Positions 5,759 to 14,487 of a stretch of 43,990 nt of DNA are shown piece after piece. Source of the DNA: Glycomyces salinus (GTDB lineage: Bacteria > Actinomycetota > Actinomycetes > Mycobacteriales > Micromonosporaceae). Made by a program: the position numbers and the translations under genes. Under the pieces are notes generated by a model that had not been told where the DNA came from, did not search any database, and saw nothing but the letters and a program-made list of their open reading frames with translations. The stretch spans positions 1 to 43,990 of the forward strand of contig NZ_JAELXW010000025.1 in the NCBI RefSeq assembly GCF_016428645.1. Reading direction: 5' to 3'. The first letter of the stretch is position 1. Each line of letters starts with the position of its first letter.

Positions 5759-8700
5759 CTAGCGGGGCGGGTCCAAGACCGCCAGCGCGGCGCCTGGCGC
5801 GACCTGGCCCCCCGCTTCGGCCAGGACCTTCAGGACCCGGCCCGCCTGCGGCGCGAGCACCGGAGTCTCCATCTTCATCGCCTCCAGCACGAACAGCGTC
5901 TGCCCCGCCTCCACGTCCTGGCCGGGCTCAACGGCGACCTTCCAGACCGCCGCCGCCAGCGGCGACTCGACGACCGCTCCCCCGGGCGGAGCCTCGATCG
6001 CCGAGGCTCCGGCCGCGGGCGGCTCGGCCTGCTGGCGGTCGAACTCGCCCGAGGCCTCCCAGGCGGCCCGCTCGGCGGCGAACGCCGCCGACTGCCGCGA
6101 CTTGAACGCGGCGATCCCGGCCGCCTCCCGGTCCAGGAAGGCGCGGTAGTCGCCGTACCGGAACTCGCCGTCGACGATCTCGGGCGTGAACCGCCCGGCG
6201 GCCGACTCCGCCCGCAGCTCCCCCAGCTCCTCGGAGGAGACCGGATACCAACGGATCCGGTCGAAGAACCGCAGCAGCCACGGCTTGCCCGCCTCGAACG
6301 CGCCCCGCTGCCGGTGGGTGTTCCACACCTGCACCGTCCGGCCCACGAACTGGTAACCGCCGGGCCCCTCCATGCCGTAGACGCACAGGTACGCCCCGCC
6401 GATCCCGACCGCGTTCTGCGGAGTCCAGGTCCGGGCCGGGTTGTACTTGGTCGTCACCAGGCGGTGGCGCGGATCAAGCGGCGTGGCGACCGGAGCGCCG
6501 AGGTAGACGTCTCCGAGCCCGAGCACCATGTACTCGGCGTCGAACACGATCCGACGCACCGCGCCCACATCGTCCAGGCCGTTCATGCGCCGGATGAACT
6601 CGATGTTCCACGGGCACCAGGGCGCGTCGTCGCGCACACCGTTCATGTACCGGTCGATCGCCTCCCTGGTGGACGGGTCGTCCCACGACAGCGGCAACCG
6701 CACCTCGCGGCTGGGCACGACCAGCTCCGCCGTGGACGGCAGGTCCGCCTCGGTCTCCGCCAGGAGGTCGACGACCTCGCGCTGCCCGATGCGGTTCGCG
6801 TCGAAGTGGATCTGGAGGCTCCGCACACCGGGGGTGAGGTCGACCAGGTCCTCGCCGAGACGCGCGTCGACGGCCTCGGCGAGCGCGTGGACGCGCATCC
6901 GCAGCGCCAGGTCGAGGGTGTGAGGGCCGTATTCGACCAGGACGTTGTCGTCGCCGGAGCGCCGGTAGACGGCCTCGGGGCGGTCGTCCCCGGCCGGGAG
7001 CTCGGCGAGGACGGCGGGCACGTCGTCGACCCGCCCGAAGCGCACCGTGTCGCCGGGCCGTAGCTGGCCGAGACGCCAGCGCTCGGATGCGACCACCGTG
7101 GCCGGGCATACGAATCCGCCGAGGCTCGGCCCGTCGGGGCCGAGCAGGACGGGCATGTCGCCGGTGAAGTCGACCGCGCCGATCGCGTAGGCGTTGTCGT
7201 GGATGTTCGAGGGGTGGAGCCCGGCCTCGCCGCCGTCCTCACGGGCCCACCGGGGCCTGGGACCGATCAGGCGCACACCCGTTCGCGCGGAGTTGAAGTG
7301 GACCTCCCAGGCCGCGGAGTAGAACTCGGCCATGTCCTCGGGCGTGAAGAAGTCCGGGGCGGCGTGCGGTCCTTCGACGACCGGCAGCTCCCAGTCGTTG
7401 GAGAACCGGGGCCGCCGCGATTCGGGCACCCGTCCGCGCCATTCGGGTTCGGTTTCACCGACCGGATCGGCCGGGCGCAGCACGTCCGCTGTCCGTAGCG
7501 CCGCGCCGGTGGTTCCCCCGATTTGCCCCAGCGTGAAGGTCGCGGCCGATCCCAGGTATGCCGGGGCGTCCAATCCACCTCGGAACAGCACGTAGGTCCG
7601 CAGGCCGGTCTCCTCGGGCGCGGACACCGACAGCTCCCCCCCGGCCCGGACCGTCACCGCCTCCCATTGCGGCACCGGAGCGCCGTCCACGGTCACCTCG
7701 GCGGGGGCGCCGGTCACGCACACCGTCGTCTCGGCGCCGAACCGCAGCCGCGGCCCCTGGGCGACGCACTCCAGTCCGGGCGCCCCCTCGGGATTGCCCA
7801 GGGCCAGGTTGCCCAGCCGGAAGGAGCGGTCGTCCATCGGGCCGGACGGGGGCAGGCCGACCTGCCAGTACCCCACGCGTCCCGGCCAGTCCTGGATCGT
7901 CGTCTGGGTGCCGCCGGAGAGCACGTCGATGCGCGGGCGCGGATCGGCCACGTCGGCGAGCGTCGCGGTGGTGTGCCGGGCCTCGGTGAAACCCTCGCAG
8001 GCCAGTGCGGCGGCGAGTTGGCCCTGGTTGGTCTCGACGCCCGCGATCTCGAGCTCGGCGAGTGCGCGCGAGGCCGAGTCGATCGCCGCGCGCCGGTCCG
8101 GGCCGTGCGCGATGAGCTTGGCGATCATGGGGTCGTAGTGCGGTCCGATCTCGGTGCCCGGTTCGATCCAGGTGTCGATCCGGATCCGCTCGGGCAGGCG
8201 CAGGTGCGTGACGATGCCGGTGGAGGGCCGGTGGTGCTCGCTGGGGTCTTCGGCGTAGAGGCGGGTCTGGATGGCGTGACCGCTCGGCTCCAGCAAATAC
8301 CTCATCATCGATATATCTTCTTTTGCGAGTCGGATCATCCACTCGACCAGGTCGATGCCGAACACGGCCTCGGTGACCGGGTGCTCCACCTGGAGCCGCG
8401 TATTGACCTCCAGGAACGACACCTCGTCGCGCTCGGTGTCGTAGAGGAACTCCACGGTCCCGGCCGAGCGGTATCCCACCGAGGCGCACAGACGCCTGGC
8501 GGCCTCGTGCATGGACCGCCGCAGGCGCGCGGGGAGGTCCGGCGCCGGGGCCTCCTCGATCACCTTCTGGTTCCGGCGCTGCAGCGAGCAGTCGCGGTCC
8601 CCGATGACGGCGACCTCGCCGCGCCCGTCGCCGAAGACCTGGGCCTCGACGTGCCGGGCGCGCCGAACCTGCCGCTCCAGGAACAGCCCGGCGTGGCCGA

Positions 8701-9274
8701 ACCCGGTCTCGGCCACCCGCCGCACCCCGTCCCACGCCTCGCGCAGCTCCTCGGGGTTCGCGGCGGGCCGCATGCCGATCCCGCCGCCGCCCCCGGTGGC
8801 CTTGAGCATGACCGGGTAGCCGATGCGGTCGGCCTCGGCCAGGGCCGCTTCGAGGCCCGCGAGCAGGCCGGTGCCGAGCATGAGCGGGACCCCGGCGTCC
8901 TCGGCCGCGGCGCGTGCGGTGTGCTTGGCGCCGAACAGCTCCAGGTGTTCGGGGGAGGGACCGACGAAGGCGAGGCCCGCCGCCTCGACCGCCTCGGCGA
9001 AGGCGGCGTTCTCGGACAGGAAGCCGTAGCCGGGGTGGATCGCCCCGGCCCCGGTCGCGGCGGCGGCCTCGAGGACGGCCTCGGTCCGCAGGTAGGAGTC
9101 GGCCGGCGCGGGGCCGCCGATGCGGACGGCCCGGTCGGCGGCGTCGACGTGGGCCGAGCCTCGGTCGGCGTCGGAGTACACGGCGACGGTCTCCAGGCCC
9201 ATGCGTTTGGCGGTGGCGATCACGCGCACGGCGATCTCGCCGCGGTTGGCCACCAGGAGCGTGCCGAAGGTCAA
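5759..9274 (-). CDS. Biotin-dependent urea/guanidine carboxylase
   Basis: A 1171-residue multidomain enzyme. Residues 1-445 are biotin carboxylase ([36 protein letters not shown]). About 450-740 is the KipA/AHS2 half of the carboxyltransferase ([20 protein letters not shown]). About 760-1000 holds the KipI/AHS1 half and the family block [18 protein letters not shown]. The C-terminal biotinyl domain has EAMKMETP with Lys1134 as the biotin site. It carboxylates urea or guanidine with ATP and bicarbonate. The chosen TTG start (9274) overlaps the UAAP2 stop (TTGA) and begins right at the fold; upstream codons in this frame are shadow. The deiminase genes in the same operon point to guanidine. Residues 318-328 are encoded by strikingly AT-rich codons. 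Confidence 0.93.
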
Positions 9275-9912
9275 GCCCGCCCACCGCCCTCGGTGGCGCG
9301 GTCCGCCGCGGTCACGACCGCTTTGACCGGTGTGGGGTCGAAGGCGTTGCAGGGGTTGTTGATCTGGGGGCAGTTGGAGATCAGCGCGATCAGGTCCCGC
9401 TCGGCGCGCATGGTCACCTGGAGACCGGGCGCGGAGAGGCCGTCGACGATGCCCAGGCATCCGTCGTCCTCGACCGGCACGTTCATGAACCAGTTGACGT
9501 TGCCGGTCAAGTCGCGTTTGCCCAGGCCCCAGCGGGCTCCTTCGTGGAGGAAGTTCTCGACGCATGCGTGCTGGCCCCAGGCCTGGTGGCCGTAGCGGAG
9601 GGTGTTGGACTCCTTGGAGCAGGCGCCGCCGATGGTGTCGTGGCGGCCGCAGTCGTCGGCGGTGACGGTCGCCATCGGACGGTGCTCGACGTCGCGCAGG
9701 ACCGAGCCGGTGGTCAGGAACAGCGCCCCGGCCGCGGCGACGGTGTTCTGGGCGCTGTAGCGCAGGTCGGTGTCGGCGGCGTCGTAGAGGAGGAAGTCGA
9801 CGGCCTGGTTGCCGCCGAGGTCGACGATCGACAGGAACTGCCCGGCTCGTACGAGGCCGGACCAGGGCGCGCGTGCGGGTACGACGGTTTCGCTGACGGT
9901 CTCGGCGCTCAT
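9271..9912 (-). CDS. cgdB: Urea amidolyase-associated protein 2 (carboxyguanidine deiminase subunit CgdB-type)
   Basis: 213 residues of the DUF1989 family in its UAAP2 form: [24 protein letters not shown], the segment [17 protein letters not shown] with conserved His and Cys, and [23 protein letters not shown] near the C terminus. UAAP1 and UAAP2 homologues are known as the two subunits of carboxyguanidine deiminase, which converts the carboxylase product to allophanate and ammonia. The ATG overlaps the UAAP1 stop and the stop overlaps the TTG of the carboxylase, so all three genes are translationally coupled. The exact substrate here is inferred from this arrangement. Confidence 0.88.
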
Positions 9913-10778
9913 GCTGCGGCTCCCAGGAACTCGGCGGTGTTGGACAGGGCGCGGCGGATCTCCGGTGTGGATTCCCACAGCGGGTCGTCGGGGGCGGTGG
10001 GCCGGTCCTTCCAGGCGAGGACGCGCAGGCTGGAGACCGTGTAGTCCTCCCTCGGATCCAGCGGGTGCGGGGTGTTGGCGAGCATGACCAGCAAAGGGGC
10101 CTCGGCCCGGATGCGGACCCTCGCCCCGGCCCCGGCCCCGCCGGTCCACCGGAGGCGGCCGTCGGGGTCGGCCTTGACGCCCTTGAACAGGCTCACCGTC
10201 GGCGGGAGGTCGCGGGGGGCCAGGTCGTTCTTGGCGGCGGCGAGTTTGAGCAGTTCGCGGGCGGCCGGAGTGGCCGACCAGGGCTCGCCGTCGCCGAAGC
10301 GCTCGCGGTTCTGCTCGGCGGTGGCGGCACCGCAGAAGGTGTCGTGGCGGCCGGACTCGTCGAGGTCGAGACTGGCCAGCGCGCGCCCCTGGTCGCTGAG
10401 GAGGAGCGCCCCGGCGCCGAGGTAGGCGTTCCACTGGACCTTGACGGTGTCGGCCACGCAGAGCCGTTCCCAGGGGCGCCCGGCCCAGAACAGGGCGAGC
10501 TGGGCACAGGACTCGCCTTCGAGGTCGGTCAGTTCGACGACGGCGCCGGGGGCGAGGACCTTGTGCGCGTACCCGCCTCCGGCGACGGTCTCGGCCCAGA
10601 CGAGCCGTTGGCCCTCCGGGTGGTCCGTGGTGTCCGGGAAGGTGTCGGCCGGGACCCAGGACCGGTCGGCGACGGTGGCGGCGGACTCTTGGGCGCGCGC
10701 GTGGTCGCGGGCGGCGTAGGTGGTGGCGGTTGCCGAGTCCTCGGGCGTGTCGGCCTGTGCGCTAGCTGATCCGGTCAC
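9909..10778 (-). CDS. cgdA: Urea amidolyase-associated protein 1 (carboxyguanidine deiminase subunit CgdA-type)
   Basis: 289 residues, DUF1989 family, UAAP1 form. The first 70 residues are a variable polar leader. The conserved core contains [40 protein letters not shown] and [12 protein letters not shown] (His and Cys shared with UAAP2), then [16 protein letters not shown] and [14 protein letters not shown]. The start is GTG at 10778 with a strong GGAGG five bases upstream. It is the first gene of the coupled UAAP1-UAAP2-carboxylase operon. Just upstream, at 10800-10819, lies a near-perfect palindrome also found before the symporter gene at 14281. I find no guanidine-I riboswitch-like leader; the promoter region is short. 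Confidence 0.88.
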
Positions 10779-10799
10779 GTCGACCTCCGCTCGATCGAA

Positions 10800-10819
10800 T
10801 TTCTATCATTTGATAGAAA
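10800..10819. promoter_or_regulatory. Operator O1 of the putative guanidine regulon
   Basis: TTTCTATCATTTGATAGAAA has 9-bp perfect arms around TT. It lies 22 nt upstream of the UAAP1 start and would overlap its promoter. The same motif, TTTCTATC-N4-GATAGAAA, recurs at 14303-14322 (one arm mismatch) and 14338-14357 (two changes), both before the divergently oriented symporter and TetR genes. The shared site ties the three loci together; the TetR protein is the simplest candidate for binding. Confidence 0.65.
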
Positions 10820-10934
10820 CTACCGTCGAAAGCGTTCGGCGGCGTGAATCCCTGGTTTCGGGCCGGTTTCGACCCCGGCCCGCCTTCCGCGGCGCCGTCG
10901 GTGAGCCCCACCCACGCATGAATGTAAAATATTC

Positions 10935-10963
10935 TTGACATGATGTCAGATCTGTTTTACTCT
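10935..10963 (+). promoter_or_regulatory. Sigma70-type promoter with palindrome over the -35 box
   Basis: TTGACA (10935-10940) is followed after 17 bp by TACTCT (10958-10963). A perfect inverted repeat TGACAT-G-ATGTCA (10936-10948) overlaps the -35 box. The start codon at 11005 is 42 nt downstream, with GGAGG at 10990. The palindrome is well placed for repression by the small XRE regulator encoded second in this transcript. Confidence 0.6.
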
Positions 10964-11004
10964 TGGAGCATGAACCAGCTTCGACACACGGAGGTCGCGC
11001 CGTC

Positions 11005-11448
11005 ATGAGCGGTAGTCCCGAATCCCCCGGCGAGCCCGCCCTGCCGTACGGCGAGCGCTACACGTGGGGCTATCTCGCCACGGCGGTCGTGGTGATCTCG
11101 GCATATGTCGTGTACATGCTCGTCCAGTTGGCGGACACACCGGTCGACGAGATCGGCTTCCAGAAGCCGCTGCTCGTCGCCATCGGCGCCTCCATCGTCC
11201 TCAACATGTTCTTCGCCCCGCAGCCCCGCAAGGGCCGGGACCGCCGCGACGAGCGGGACACCCTCATCGCCCGGCACGGCGAGCGCATCGGCTTCATGGT
11301 CTTGGCGATCGCGTTCCTCGGCCCGTTCACCCTGGTGATGTTCGAGGTCTCCTACTTCTGGATCGCCAACGCGATCTATCTTGCCTACTGCCTGTCGGCG
11401 ATAGTCGAGTCCGTGGTCAAGATCGTGGGCTACCGGCGGGGATTCTAA
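11005..11448 (+). CDS. Four-helix membrane protein paired with an XRE regulator
   Basis: 147 residues with about four membrane helices: YLATAVVVISAYVVYMLV, PLLVAIGASIVLNMFF, IGFMVLAIAFLGPFTLVMF and a last one ending in a short basic tail. A conserved cytoplasmic loop RKGRDRRDERDTLIARHGERIG lies in the middle. The arrangement resembles DUF2178-type membrane proteins, which commonly sit before a small XRE regulator as here. The ATG at 11005 is chosen because GGAGG precedes it; the frame opens 14 codons earlier at a TTG lacking an RBS. Function unknown. Confidence 0.75.
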   Translation: MSGSPESPGEPALPYGERYTWGYLATAVVVISAYVVYMLVQLADTPVDEIGFQKPLLVAIGASIVLNMFFAPQPRKGRDRRDERDTLIARHGERIGFMVLAIAFLGPFTLVMFEVSYFWIANAIYLAYCLSAIVESVVKIVGYRRGF

Positions 11449-11470
11449 GGCATCGACGAGGATACATACT

Positions 11471-11698
11471 GTGGCCAAACGGACGAAAGTCACCAACAAC
11501 ATCCGGGCGCTTCGCTTCGCCAACGGCGAGATGACCCAGGCGCAGCTCGCGGACCGCATCGACGTCACCCGCCAGACGGTCATCGCGATCGAGCAGGGCC
11601 GCTACTCCCCCTCGCTGGAGATGGCCTTCCAGATCGCCAGGGTCTTCAAAGTCCCGCTCGACGAGGTCTTCGGATACGACGAGTCTATAGGGGACTGA
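11471..11698 (+). CDS. Small XRE-family (YgzD-like) transcriptional regulator
   Basis: 75 residues, essentially only a Cro/C1 helix-turn-helix: NIRALRFANGEMTQAQLADR, then VTRQTVIAIEQGRYSPSLEMAFQIARVFKVPLDEVF. This is the pattern of the short regulators encoded behind membrane proteins in many Firmicutes and actinomycetes. The start is GTG at 11471, 22 nt after the membrane protein stop, so the two form an operon. It probably represses its own promoter at the TGACAT-G-ATGTCA palindrome. Family certain; target inferred. Confidence 0.88.
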   Translation: MAKRTKVTNNIRALRFANGEMTQAQLADRIDVTRQTVIAIEQGRYSPSLEMAFQIARVFKVPLDEVFGYDESIGD

Positions 11699-11766
11699 CC
11701 AGCGACGAAGCGGCCGTCCGAGGACCGCCGGCCCTTCACCCCCGCATCTGCAACCGAGGAGCCCCC

Positions 11767-12747
11767 ATGAAAGCCATCGTCCAAGACATATACGGACCGC
11801 CCGAAGTGCTGCGGACCGACGAGGTCGACCGCCCGGCGGCCCGCTCCGGTGAAGTCCTCGTCCAGGTCGAGGCGGCCGGGCTCGGCCCCGAGGTCTGGCA
11901 CCTGGTCGCCGGGATGCCGCGCGTCGTCCGGCTCGGCACCGGCCTCGGGCGGCCACGGCACCCGGTCGCCGGCCGCGACCTGGCCGGCCGCGTGGTCGAG
12001 GTCGGCGAGGGCGTCACCGAATTCGGTGTCGGGGACGCCGTGTTCGGGACCGGATGGGGCACCTTCGCCGAATACGCCCGCGCCCCCGTCTCCCGCCTCG
12101 CCCGCAAGCCCGACCGGGTCGGCTTCGCCGCGGCGGGGGCGGCGCCCGTCTCCGGCCTGACGGCCCTCCAGGCGCTGCGGGACAAGGCGAGGATCGGCCC
12201 CGGCGACCGCGTCGCCGTCATCGGCGCCGGAGGCGGCGTGGGCACCTTCGCCGTCCAGATCGCGAAGATCATGGGCGCCGAGGTCACCGGCGTGTGCGGC
12301 ACGGATAAGACCGATCTGGTCCGATCCCTGGGCGCCGACCACGTCGTCGACTACCCGCGCGAGGACTTCACCGCCACCCCCGACCCGTACGACGCCATCG
12401 TCGACACCGCCGGGCACCGGTCGGTGCGGGCGCTGCGCAGGGCCCTCGCGCCGCGGGGAACCCTGGTCATCGTCGGGTCGGAGACCGGCGGCCAGTGGCT
12501 CGGCGGCCTCCAGCGGTCCATGGGCTCCGCGCTGCTCGCGCCGCTCACCGGTCACCGGATGCCGCTGTTCCTCTCCACGGAGGAGCGGGCCGACCTCGAG
12601 GCGCTGGCGGAATACATGGCCGACGGCCGGCTCTCGCCGGTCATCGGCCGGTCCTACCCGCTCGAAGAGGTGCCCGAGGCGCTGCGGCGCTGGGCCGAGG
12701 GGCACGCCCGCGGCAAGACCGTCATCACGATCGGGACCGGCGAGTGA
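11767..12747 (+). CDS. NAD(P)-dependent MDR oxidoreductase (zinc-free)
   Basis: 326 residues, medium-chain dehydrogenase/reductase fold. The N-terminal GroES-like half has AGLGPEVWHLVAGMP and HPVAGRDLAGRVVEVGEGV. The cofactor motif VAVIGAGGGVGTFAVQIAKIMGAE is near residue 155. Zinc-ligand cysteines are lacking, so quinone or enone reduction is more likely than alcohol oxidation. The start is ATG with AGGAG six bases upstream. It lies 68 nt after the XRE gene, probably in the same transcript, and ends only 13 nt from the convergent symporter gene with no room for a separate terminator. Substrate unknown. Confidence 0.85.
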   Translation: MKAIVQDIYGPPEVLRTDEVDRPAARSGEVLVQVEAAGLGPEVWHLVAGMPRVVRLGTGLGRPRHPVAGRDLAGRVVEVGEGVTEFGVGDAVFGTGWGTFAEYARAPVSRLARKPDRVGFAAAGAAPVSGLTALQALRDKARIGPGDRVAVIGAGGGVGTFAVQIAKIMGAEVTGVCGTDKTDLVRSLGADHVVDYPREDFTATPDPYDAIVDTAGHRSVRALRRALAPRGTLVIVGSETGGQWLGGLQRSMGSALLAPLTGHRMPLFLSTEERADLEALAEYMADGRLSPVIGRSYPLEEVPEALRRWAEGHARGKTVITIGTGE

Positions 12748-12760
12748 GCGCGGGCCCGAG

Positions 12761-14281
12761 TCAGTCCTCGGCGCCGACCGCGACCCGCTCCGACTCAGCG
12801 GCAGCCGGTACCGGCGCCTGTGCGGCGGCCCTGGCCGGGCGGAGCGCGGCGGTGACCGCGTAGGCGACCAGTCCGGCGGCGACGGCGATGAAGGTCGGCC
12901 ACCCGTCGAAGGCGGCCGTGACGGTGTCGTTGTCGAGGTAGAGCAGGTCGTTGGGCGCGCCGTAGATCGTCGGGGTCACCGCGAACAGGGCCAGTCGCAT
13001 CCCGGTGCCGACCGCCATCGCCACGGCGGCGGCGTGGGCGCCGCCGCGCTTCCACCAGTGGCCGAGGATGAACGGCACCGCCAGCCCCGCGAGCATGAGG
13101 TCGAAGGCGAGCGTCAGCAGGATGCCGGTCTGCGGGACCCGCACGGCCATCAGGATCGACAGGAGCACGATCGGGAACATGGCCCAGCGGCTCGCCCGCA
13201 GGAGTGGATCGCGGCCGGCGCCGAAGATCCGCAAGCCCGGCAGCTTGCCGTCCTCGGTGTTCTTGATCCCGGCGATGTTGCGGGCCACCACCGCCCCGGT
13301 GCCGAGGATGGCGCCGTTGGCCGTTGAGCAGGAGGCGGCCACGATCGCGGCCAGGACCGCCATCGCCAGCGCGGTCGGGGCGTGCTCGTCGAGCAGGGTG
13401 AACAGGACCGCTTCGCCGCCGCCTTCGGCCCCGACGATGTCGACCGCCGACAGGGCGACGTAGGTGAAGGGGATGCCGACCAAGAGGGTCCCGGCGGCGC
13501 CGAGGAAACAGGCGCGGCGGGCCGTGTTCGGGTTCTTGGCCGCGAAGATGCGCTGCATGAAGTCGATGGCGACGATGTCGCCGACGCCGAGGGCGATGAG
13601 GGCGGCCCAGTTGATCGGCCCGCCTCCGGCGGTGGTGGTGAGCTGGTCGAGGTCGAAGGCGCCCATGCCCTCGGGCACGGAGATGCCGTGGGTGGCGGCG
13701 ACCCAGATGAACAGGGCGGCGGTGGCGACCAGGGTGATGGCCATCTGGGCGGCGGCGGTGTAGGCGTCGGCGAACATGCCGCCGGCGACGGTGTAGGTGA
13801 GGACGACGGCCACGATGAGGAGGACTCCTATCGTGTAGTCGATGCCGAGGAAGTGCTCGAACAGGAAGCCTCCGGCCACTAGGTTGCCGGCCAGGAGGAC
13901 AACGTAGGCGATGACCATCAGGACCGAGGAGGCGACCTCGATCGGGCGGCCGTAGCGGCGGGCGTACCAGTCGGGCAGGGTCAGCAGCTTGGCGGCGTTC
14001 ATCGGGCGGGCGAAGAAGATGCCGGTGAGCACCAGGCACAGGGCGAGGCCGATGGGCAGGCTGGCCCCGGCCCAGAAGCCGAAGCCGTAGGCGAGGTCGG
14101 TATTGCCGAGGGTGGCGTTGGAGTCGACGGCCTGGGCCATGAGCCCGGCGGCGACGAGCGGCAGGCCGAGGGTGCGGCCCGCGACGAGGTAGCGTCCGGA
14201 GTCGCCGTCGACCTTGCGGGAGACCGCCAGTCCGATGGCCAGGACGATGAGGATCGAGAGTCCCACACCGAGGAGTATCAT
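12761..14281 (-). CDS. Sodium:solute symporter (SSS family), possible guanidine/urea-type uptake
   Basis: 506 residues with about 13 membrane helices, typical for the SSS family. Conserved parts include SGRYLVAGRTLGLPLVAAGLMA near the N terminus, TLGNTDLAYGFGFWAGASLPIG, PDWYARRYGRPIEVASS and the TYTVAGGMFADAYTAAAQM segment. Characterised SSS members include DUR3-type urea transporters as well as proline, sugar and carboxylate carriers. The substrate cannot be read from sequence, but the two operators before this gene match the one before the deiminase/carboxylase operon, which suggests guanidine, urea or a related nitrogen compound. GGAAGG lies six bases before the ATG. Confidence 0.85.
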   Translation of the reverse strand: MILLGVGLSILIVLAIGLAVSRKVDGDSGRYLVAGRTLGLPLVAAGLMAQAVDSNATLGNTDLAYGFGFWAGASLPIGLALCLVLTGIFFARPMNAAKLLTLPDWYARRYGRPIEVASSVLMVIAYVVLLAGNLVAGGFLFEHFLGIDYTIGVLLIVAVVLTYTVAGGMFADAYTAAAQMAITLVATAALFIWVAATHGISVPEGMGAFDLDQLTTTAGGGPINWAALIALGVGDIVAIDFMQRIFAAKNPNTARRACFLGAAGTLLVGIPFTYVALSAVDIVGAEGGGEAVLFTLLDEHAPTALAMAVLAAIVAASCSTANGAILGTGAVVARNIAGIKNTEDGKLPGLRIFGAGRDPLLRASRWAMFPIVLLSILMAVRVPQTGILLTLAFDLMLAGLAVPFILGHWWKRGGAHAAAVAMAVGTGMRLALFAVTPTIYGAPNDLLYLDNDTVTAAFDGWPTFIAVAAGLVAYAVTAALRPARAAAQAPVPAAAESERVAVGAED

Positions 14282-14301
14282 CTGGAACCTTCCGGGAGCT
14301 G

Positions 14302-14323
14302 ATTTCTATCGAATGACAGAAAT
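14302..14323. promoter_or_regulatory. Operator O2 before the symporter gene
   Basis: TTTCTATC-GAAT-GACAGAAA (14303-14322) is an inverted repeat with one mismatched pair, extended by A and T at the ends. It lies 22 nt upstream of the symporter ATG, the same distance as O1 from UAAP1. It matches O1 in the left arm and all but one base of the right arm. Confidence 0.65.
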
Positions 14324-14337
14324 TAACCTTCCGAGAG

Positions 14338-14357
14338 TTTCGATCGATCGATAGAAT
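14338..14357. promoter_or_regulatory. Operator O3 in the symporter/TetR intergenic region
   Basis: TTTCGATC-GATC-GATAGAAT fits the same 8-4-8 design as O1 and O2 with one change in each arm. O2 and O3 are 35 bp apart centre to centre, so two dimers could bind the same promoter region. It faces the divergent TetR gene, which may therefore be autoregulated. Confidence 0.55.
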
Positions 14358-14363
14358 TTATTT

Positions 14364-14377
14364 CGTTCATATGAACG
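14364..14377. promoter_or_regulatory. Perfect 14-bp palindrome, second operator type
   Basis: CGTTCAT|ATGAACG is a perfect palindrome of the kind TetR-family dimers bind. It differs in sequence from O1-O3 and sits between O3 and the TetR gene start (14488). A TAGAAT hexamer at 14444-14449 is a plausible -10 box for the TetR gene further downstream. Confidence 0.5.
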
Positions 14378-14487
14378 TCTCCGCACGGCCGAAACCGATC
14401 GGTACGGGCCGTCTCCGAGCCGTCCCGATTCCCCGCGCTGCATTAGAATTGGCCGCGCACCGCGACAGGAAGGCGTGACCGGACCCG

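Follow-up and report, generated by a model that had tools for sequence, protein, structure and literature searches.

Known AmtR regulons and guanidine carboxylases

The TetR-family repressor AmtR of Corynebacterium glutamicum has been described as binding the box tttCTATN6AtAGat/aA and as controlling a regulon of at least 35 genes that is linked to GlnK (PMC2723105). Jessberger et al. (2013) described AmtR in ten actinobacteria alongside a permease gene, two uncharacterised frames, a 'urea carboxylase' and an amidase. Control of the amtR/permease/urf1-urf2/'urea carboxylase' set by AmtR has been known since then (PMC4222082). In that study an amtR mutant of Mycobacterium smegmatis gave stronger transcript signals for msmeg_2184, 2187 and 2189 (the results for 2187 and 2189 appear as data not shown), and the msmeg_2184 promoter was gel-shifted by M. 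smegmatis AmtR (PMC4222082). Urea and amino acids were without effect on this binding; the paper does not contain the word guanidine, nor is the compound listed with the effectors tested (PMC4222082). The M. smegmatis AmtR was placed under GlnR, its genes being GlnR-dependent (PMC4222082), and a review describes control by a cis-encoded small RNA together with competition with GlnR (PMC10704036). The homologues for which box binding and repression are documented in print are those of M. smegmatis and C. glutamicum (PMC4222082, PMC2723105). For the enzymes, the rule has been put forward that Asp at the position of Kluyveromyces lactis residue 1330 tells guanidine from urea carboxylases (PMC11410670). 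A literature search joining AmtR and guanidine returned insect papers only, and one for 'guanidine carboxylase' with TetR gave, judged mostly from the listing, nothing about such a regulator.

The Glycomyces locus

The stretch analysed here (the window, 43,990 nt) is the whole of contig C130 of a Glycomyces salinus draft genome of 5.37 Mb in 211 contigs. An earlier note on this DNA had proposed a guanidine regulon, in which a TetR-family repressor connects a UAAP1-UAAP2-carboxylase operon with a sodium:solute symporter. This proposal is supported and is the best reading of the locus, DNA binding and the response to guanidine being the parts that we infer. The reading as a regulon stands, but the repressor that the note left unnamed is on sequence grounds AmtR, whose control of such a gene set had already been published (PMC4222082). 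With a probability of about 0.8, a figure that leaves out guanidine sensing by AmtR, we regard the locus (Table 1) as the form that the actinobacterial AmtR regulon takes in Glycomyces, its job probably being guanidine assimilation.

Table 1. Features of the AmtR locus in the window
Feature	Coordinates	Strand	Basis
Biotin-dependent carboxylase, guanidine type, TTG start	5759..9274	-	TIGR02712 over cut-off; Asp at K. lactis 1330
UAAP2, other deiminase subunit (putative)	9271..9912	-	TIGR03424 over cut-off; DUF1989
UAAP1, carboxyguanidine deiminase subunit (putative), GTG start	9909..10778	-	TIGR03425 over cut-off; DUF1989
O1, perfect AmtR box before UAAP1	10800..10819		Motif scan; predicted site
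GlnR-like block GAAAC-N6-GAAAC-N6-TTCAC, just upstream of O1	10844..10870	-	Pattern scan, box consensus PMC10704036
Sodium:solute symporter, 506 aa; candidate guanidine importer	12761..14281	-	Pfam SSF; NCBIfam sss superfamily below cut-off
O2, AmtR box, 22 positions from symporter start codon	14303..14322		Motif scan; predicted site
O3, degenerate AmtR box between amtR and symporter	14338..14357		Motif scan; predicted site
amtR, TetR-family repressor, 273 aa	14488..15309	+	Best PDB matches AmtR; Pfam TetR_N

The repressor and its predicted operators

The best matches of the repressor in the PDB were six AmtR sequences (E 5e-39 to 4e-30), the next-best TetR protein following at E 3e-11, and no curated AmtR family model was among its NCBIfam matches. 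An unrelated or new TetR protein was rejected on these PDB matches. The identification of the protein divergent from the symporter as AmtR, and of the motif as the AmtR box, thus comes from sequence comparison, and we hold box, repressor and guanidine-type enzymes, taken jointly, with high confidence.

The motif TTTCTATC-N4-GATAGAAA was found at three places with up to three mismatches in the whole window, starting at 10800, 14303 and 14338, with 0, 1 and 2 mismatches respectively to the 20-bp palindrome, and at the same tolerance it was not found in any of 100 dinucleotide shuffles of the window. These are the coordinates that the earlier note had given as the only ones, and the equal 22-nt spacing that it had reported for O1 and O2 was likewise recovered, counted from the first start-codon base to the beginning of each box. 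The published box tttCTATN6AtAGat/aA is matched by O1 and O2. O3, which is spaced 35 nt from O2, is degenerate in that one half reads CGATC in place of CTATC, and all seven Glycomyces examined share this G. A separate 14-bp palindrome, CGTTCATATGAACG, lies at 14365-14378 between O3 and amtR and is partly conserved in related Glycomyces.

A genome-wide scan for the 20-bp motif, which the note had suggested as a check, found nine places in the draft genome with up to three mismatches: only O1 and O2 have none or one, O3 and two others have two, and four others have three. The pattern read backwards, used as a control, gave a single place. Codon periodicity suggests that the off-window sites on C57 (two), C156 and C171 lie in coding sequence, and for those on C155 and C162 there is no clear call either way. 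The idea that the motif is scattered over the genome was rejected, the other copies having two or three mismatches and four of the six being apparently intragenic.

The carboxylase operon and its substrate

UAAP1 and UAAP2 overlap by ATGA, and the UAAP2 stop and the TTG start of the carboxylase by TTGA, the pattern to be expected if the three genes form one operon. Two DUF1989 subunits beside a carboxylase are the arrangement by which the carboxyguanidine deiminase CgdAB is recognised, and UAAP1 and UAAP2 would be these subunits. The window carboxylase has Asp at K. lactis 1330 (VDFTGD), and Asp at both 1330 and 1584. A second carboxylase of the genome, on contig C90, has Asn at the first of these residues (VNFTGD) and is flanked by the urea-transporter subunit UrtE, a GntR-like gene and an allophanate hydrolase, the only one in the genome over the cut-off. 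By these residues the genome seems to have a carboxylase for guanidine and another for urea, and the finding of a guanidine-type Asp in the window enzyme and a urea-type Asn in the second is new.

It might be supposed instead that the operon serves urea, with a urea carboxylase and its accessory proteins under a urea-responsive AmtR; this agrees with the family names (TIGR02712, UAAP1/2) and with the 2013 interpretation (PMC4222082). We consider it improbable and rejected it on the specificity residue and on the separate urea-type operon, in which the paralogue beside a urea transporter gene has Asn where the window enzyme has Asp. Moreover, there would be no role for deiminases in urea carboxylation, the permeases of AmtR loci resemble those under guanidine riboswitches (see below), and urea was without effect on M. 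smegmatis AmtR (PMC4222082). The view taken in the note, that the regulon concerns guanidine, is supported by the Asp of the window enzyme and the Asn of the paralogue beside UrtE.

In the part of the window that was analysed there is no gene for an allophanate hydrolase. An AmtR box before the C90 hydrolase was considered and rejected, there being none with up to four mismatches in the 14-kb stretch around that gene (L019). Both observations count against the guanidine regulon.

The symporter and other transporters

The nearest solved chains to the symporter are choline transporters, which carry a cation, and guanidine is a candidate substrate to which the gene context points. The note had called the symporter distant. 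It does lie apart in this genome, where three other genes separate it from UAAP1, but not by design: in the six other Glycomyces that have these genes it adjoins UAAP1 and stands directly between UAAP1 and amtR. The three plus-strand genes in this gap (region 10930-12747), which are preceded by the palindrome TGACATGATGTCA, occur in this genome only among seven Glycomyces; they encode a small protein (11005-11448) and a short HTH-like protein (11473-11697), both without a family match, and a zinc-type dehydrogenase (11767-12747).

Among 51 loci a symporter of this kind was found only in G377, G257 and G056, as an SSF protein beside amtR or UAAP1 as in Glycomyces, and in the six Glycomyces stretches that include this position. 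All the permeases tested, five of them at AmtR loci and two at riboswitch loci, belong to the APC (amino acid permease) proteins. Comparing a permease of an AmtR locus with one of a riboswitch locus gave 57% identity for one pair and 53% for a second, a link between AmtR operons and guanidine that does not depend on the residue in the carboxylase. No paper joining guanidine riboswitches with sodium:solute symporters came up in a literature search. The presence in Glycomyces of a sodium:solute symporter in the permease's place is new.

Conservation among Glycomyces and across the class

Conservation in the genus was assessed in 22 Glycomyces genomes including this one, within a set of 61 genomes, with UAAP1 counted if over the cut-off, AmtR if its E was below 1e-20 and the motif if it had no more than one mismatch. 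All three occur together in the same seven of the 22. O2 and O3 are conserved in all seven and O1 is at its place in five; the other two (L156, L159) have UAAP1 after the symporter and no box separating the two genes. The motif was found without AmtR or UAAP1 in two of the 61 genomes. One of these, the Glycomyces genome G010, has four copies with at most one mismatch (L161:8947, L162:4746, L163:3314, L164:8840), which may reflect another regulator using a like site, and G030 has one copy, AmtR and UAAP1 not being found.

For the class, 394 actinomycete genomes were sampled, 41 of which had UAAP1 over the cut-off, and stretches of up to 19 kb around 40 of these 41 genes were compared together with part of the window. 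The stretches hold 36 carboxylases of the Asp type and three with Met in place of Asp/Asn, and two lack a carboxylase. AmtR lies within 33 of the 36 Asp-type stretches, and within none of the three Met-type or the two carboxylase-less ones. At the level of whole genomes AmtR was found in 36/36 with an Asp-type operon as against at least seven of the other 358 (Fisher p 2e-44, relatedness not corrected for), up to six candidates per genome having been scored, so that absences are soft.

The box TTTCTRTC-N4-GAYAGAAA was present with up to two mismatches in 23 of the 36 Asp-type stretches, and the core CTRTC-N4-GAYAG alone in a further ten (box or core, 33/36); L141, L146 and L149 had neither. 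In the 728 kb of L110-L149 the core occurred 49 times, and patterns with swapped halves or with N3 or N5 spacing not at all. Reportedly, Petridis in 2016 gave CTGTC-N4-GACAG as the motif of M. smegmatis AmtR and saw no interaction with adenylylated PII; if so, the core had been published before. A relaxed box was then sought within 500 nt upstream of the UAAP1 core in a larger set, rich in Streptomyces, of 131 loci, of which 122 are distinct and 119 have sufficient sequence on that side: 83 of the 119 loci had a perfect box, seven one with 1-3 mismatches and 29 none, while 595 shuffles and the reversed pattern, as controls, gave nothing better than four mismatches. When 24 loci, mostly without a close box before UAAP1, were rechecked with the core, seven proved to have it before the permease, and four Amycolatopsis loci among the 24 had no core. 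These four loci, the three stretches with neither box nor core, and the motif copies in G010 and G030 speak against the regulon as read here.

These counts bear on the suggestion that the shared motif is due to chance or is the site of a regulator other than AmtR. The copies in the two relatives without AmtR speak for it, but the expectation of zero from the shuffles, the joint presence of motif, AmtR and UAAP1 in the same seven of 22 Glycomyces, and the occurrence of box or core in 9/10 families with Asp-type operons make it scarcely credible.

Two further arrangements were seen in the comparison. In L135 and L136 (G170, G249) UAAP1-UAAP2 is followed by an allophanate hydrolase, while neither a carboxylase nor AmtR lies in the stretch, a deiminase pair that would have some other partner. 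Five AmtR copies elsewhere (L264:7778-13187, L167:4511-9907, L256:8244-13639, L262:3034-8413, L255:3771-8574) have two AmtR core boxes about 75-95 nt apart before a divergent Opp-type ABC transporter, followed in four of the five by a gene for an isochorismatase-like hydrolase. The best NCBIfam match of two such hydrolases tested was biuret hydrolase, far below the cut-off; guanylurea hydrolase belongs to the broad family of these hydrolases (PMC9800807).

Riboswitch or repressor

A search of the window with all Rfam families found no guanidine riboswitch. The whole genome gave no match to Guanidine-I and one to Guanidine-III, on C127, at 28.7 bits against a cut-off of 36, with no SMR gene following within the 250 nt read. 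The note's suggestion of a protein repressor in place of a guanidine riboswitch at this operon therefore agrees with what the window appears to hold, AmtR boxes and no aptamer.

Among 50 genomes with UAAP loci, Guanidine-I exceeded the cut-off in five (G039, G054, G074, G081, G143), in each of which a switch stands at the UAAP operon, and in none of 42 Asp-type genomes, three of which had weaker matches away from UAAP1; this whole-genome search used stricter filters and scored part of the candidates. The five are 5/6 of the Met-type genomes, and no AmtR was found in them (soft absences); the sixth, G227, has a 5-kb contig at the operon and no Guanidine-I match. A search of 40 short loci around UAAP genes also gave no Guanidine-I, its scope missing the switches of G039 and G054, which lie about 1.6 kb upstream. 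Guanidine-III exceeded its cut-off in 23 of 51 genomes and by coordinates was never near UAAP1. Four such switches that were inspected precede SMR proteins with SugE as best model, one of the four being over its cut-off. The division that emerges is new: all 36 Asp-type genomes of the 394 have AmtR, none of the 42 Asp-type genomes searched has Guanidine-I over the cut-off, and 5/6 Met-type genomes have the riboswitch and no AmtR. Met-type carboxylases stand beside UAAP1/UAAP2 in L142, L143, L150, L151, L152 and also L130, and their substrate may be guanidine or a relative. Since Met-type enzymes occur under a guanidine riboswitch, some carboxylases linked to guanidine fall outside the Asp/Asn rule.

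What AmtR might sense

In 108 AmtR sequences from UAAP1 loci (14 of 122 distinct loci gave no hit or fell under 90 bits and were dropped) five residues of the sensor domain are almost invariant: D133 (108/108), E152 (106/107, with one D), F161 (107/107), Y172 (106/106) and E202 (105/105). In a predicted model (mean pLDDT 85) they would fall in helices 122-139, 151-154, 156-177 and 187-210. M. smegmatis AmtR has all five, and C. glutamicum AmtR reads E, I, Y, F and M. As the near-invariant acidic residues are missing in C. glutamicum, guanidine becomes a testable candidate effector. Thirteen AmtRs away from UAAP1 served as a control. Two of them depart from the pattern, G432 being C. glutamicum-like and G331 different. 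The remaining 11 (five from genomes without UAAP1 over the cut-off, three distant AmtRs of Asp-type genomes and three second copies) keep D, E, F and Y, and E202 is kept in eight, replaced by Asn in two and not covered in one. The residues thus mark AmtRs outside Corynebacterium and not guanidine operons as such, and their use as a mark of guanidine linkage is weakened, AmtRs of genomes without UAAP1 also keeping them.

It is possible, though we are inclined to doubt it, that AmtR outside Corynebacterium is a guanidine receptor, in which guanidinium held by D133, E152 and E202 with F161 and Y172 would release the repressor. Many actinomycetes would then sense guanidine by RNA for export (Guanidine-III, SugE-type) and by AmtR for assimilation, Guanidine-I and AmtR replacing each other on the assimilation operon.

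We would put even odds on the same guanidine regulon being run by an AmtR blind to guanidine, which reports nitrogen status through competition with GlnR, through the level of AmtR (antisense RNA) or through PII as in C. glutamicum. Here the GlnR-like block adjoining O1 is relevant. It fits published GlnR boxes of the gTnAc-n6-GaAAc type (PMC10704036) and supplies two of the three matches with at most one mismatch that the window has, both strands counted. It is conserved in related Glycomyces and degenerate in the window: the half-pair GAAAC-N6-GTNAC is perfect in three of the five Glycomyces with O1, the window having one mismatch in each of two overlapping frames and L154 one and two. Ahead of the symporter, this test showed no consistent match in the Glycomyces stretches. 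Activation by GlnR at O1 is likely by analogy and conservation. In M. smegmatis the AmtR genes are GlnR-dependent and urea and amino acids leave binding unaffected (PMC4222082), with a small RNA and GlnR competition acting on AmtR (PMC10704036), and the AmtRs of genomes without UAAP1 keep the sensor residues. Against a nitrogen-status signal, the AmtR known to be linked to GlnK, that of C. glutamicum, is without the acidic residues (PMC2723105), the 2013 paper does not list guanidine with the effectors it tested (PMC4222082), and AmtR co-occurs very tightly with guanidine-type genes.

A working model

For the AmtR-controlled guanidine regulon preferred here, AmtR dimers on O1 and O2 would block transcription, and under nitrogen limitation GlnR would bind upstream of O1 and activate. 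Guanidine would be taken up through the symporter, carboxylated and then deiminated to allophanate, which the allophanate hydrolase encoded on C90 would split. The most speculative step is that guanidine or a close derivative might bind the acidic and aromatic sensor residues of AmtR and cause its release from DNA.

The soil actinobacterium Glycomyces would on this evidence have its guanidine-use genes apparently under an AmtR-type repressor and not under the RNA switches known for guanidine. If this is true, a regulon called one of urea metabolism would be re-labelled, and the missing riboswitches in the sampled Asp-type actinomycete guanidine operons would be explained. The AmtRs of guanidine operons are also concrete candidates for protein guanidine sensors, given a solved AmtR structure, 5E57, and known operators.

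Comparison with known systems

The Glycomyces locus is best read as the known pair of AmtR and 'urea carboxylase' operon in a sodium-symporter variant, now taken to serve guanidine assimilation. With the regulon of M. smegmatis and nine other actinobacteria it has in common AmtR as the (here predicted) repressor, two frames (UAAP1/2 by position) and the carboxylase, and GlnR above AmtR, a feature of the M. smegmatis regulon, probably applies in Glycomyces as well. The differences are that the transporter of the 2013 regulon is an amino acid permease, whereas in Glycomyces it is a sodium:solute symporter; that an amidase lies inside the 2013 gene set, whereas Glycomyces has an allophanate hydrolase on another contig; and that the 2013 regulon was read as urea metabolism and the present one as guanidine. 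C. glutamicum AmtR shares the DNA box and is a TetR-family repressor as in Glycomyces, but its sensor domain is without the D133, E152 and E202 of the Glycomyces type. Operons under Guanidine-I or Guanidine-II riboswitches share with Glycomyces a guanidine carboxylase, a carboxyguanidine deiminase and an import gene (PMC12186494, PMC11410670). In contrast to them, the Glycomyces operon is without a riboswitch and carries protein repressor boxes, and its symporter is of another family.
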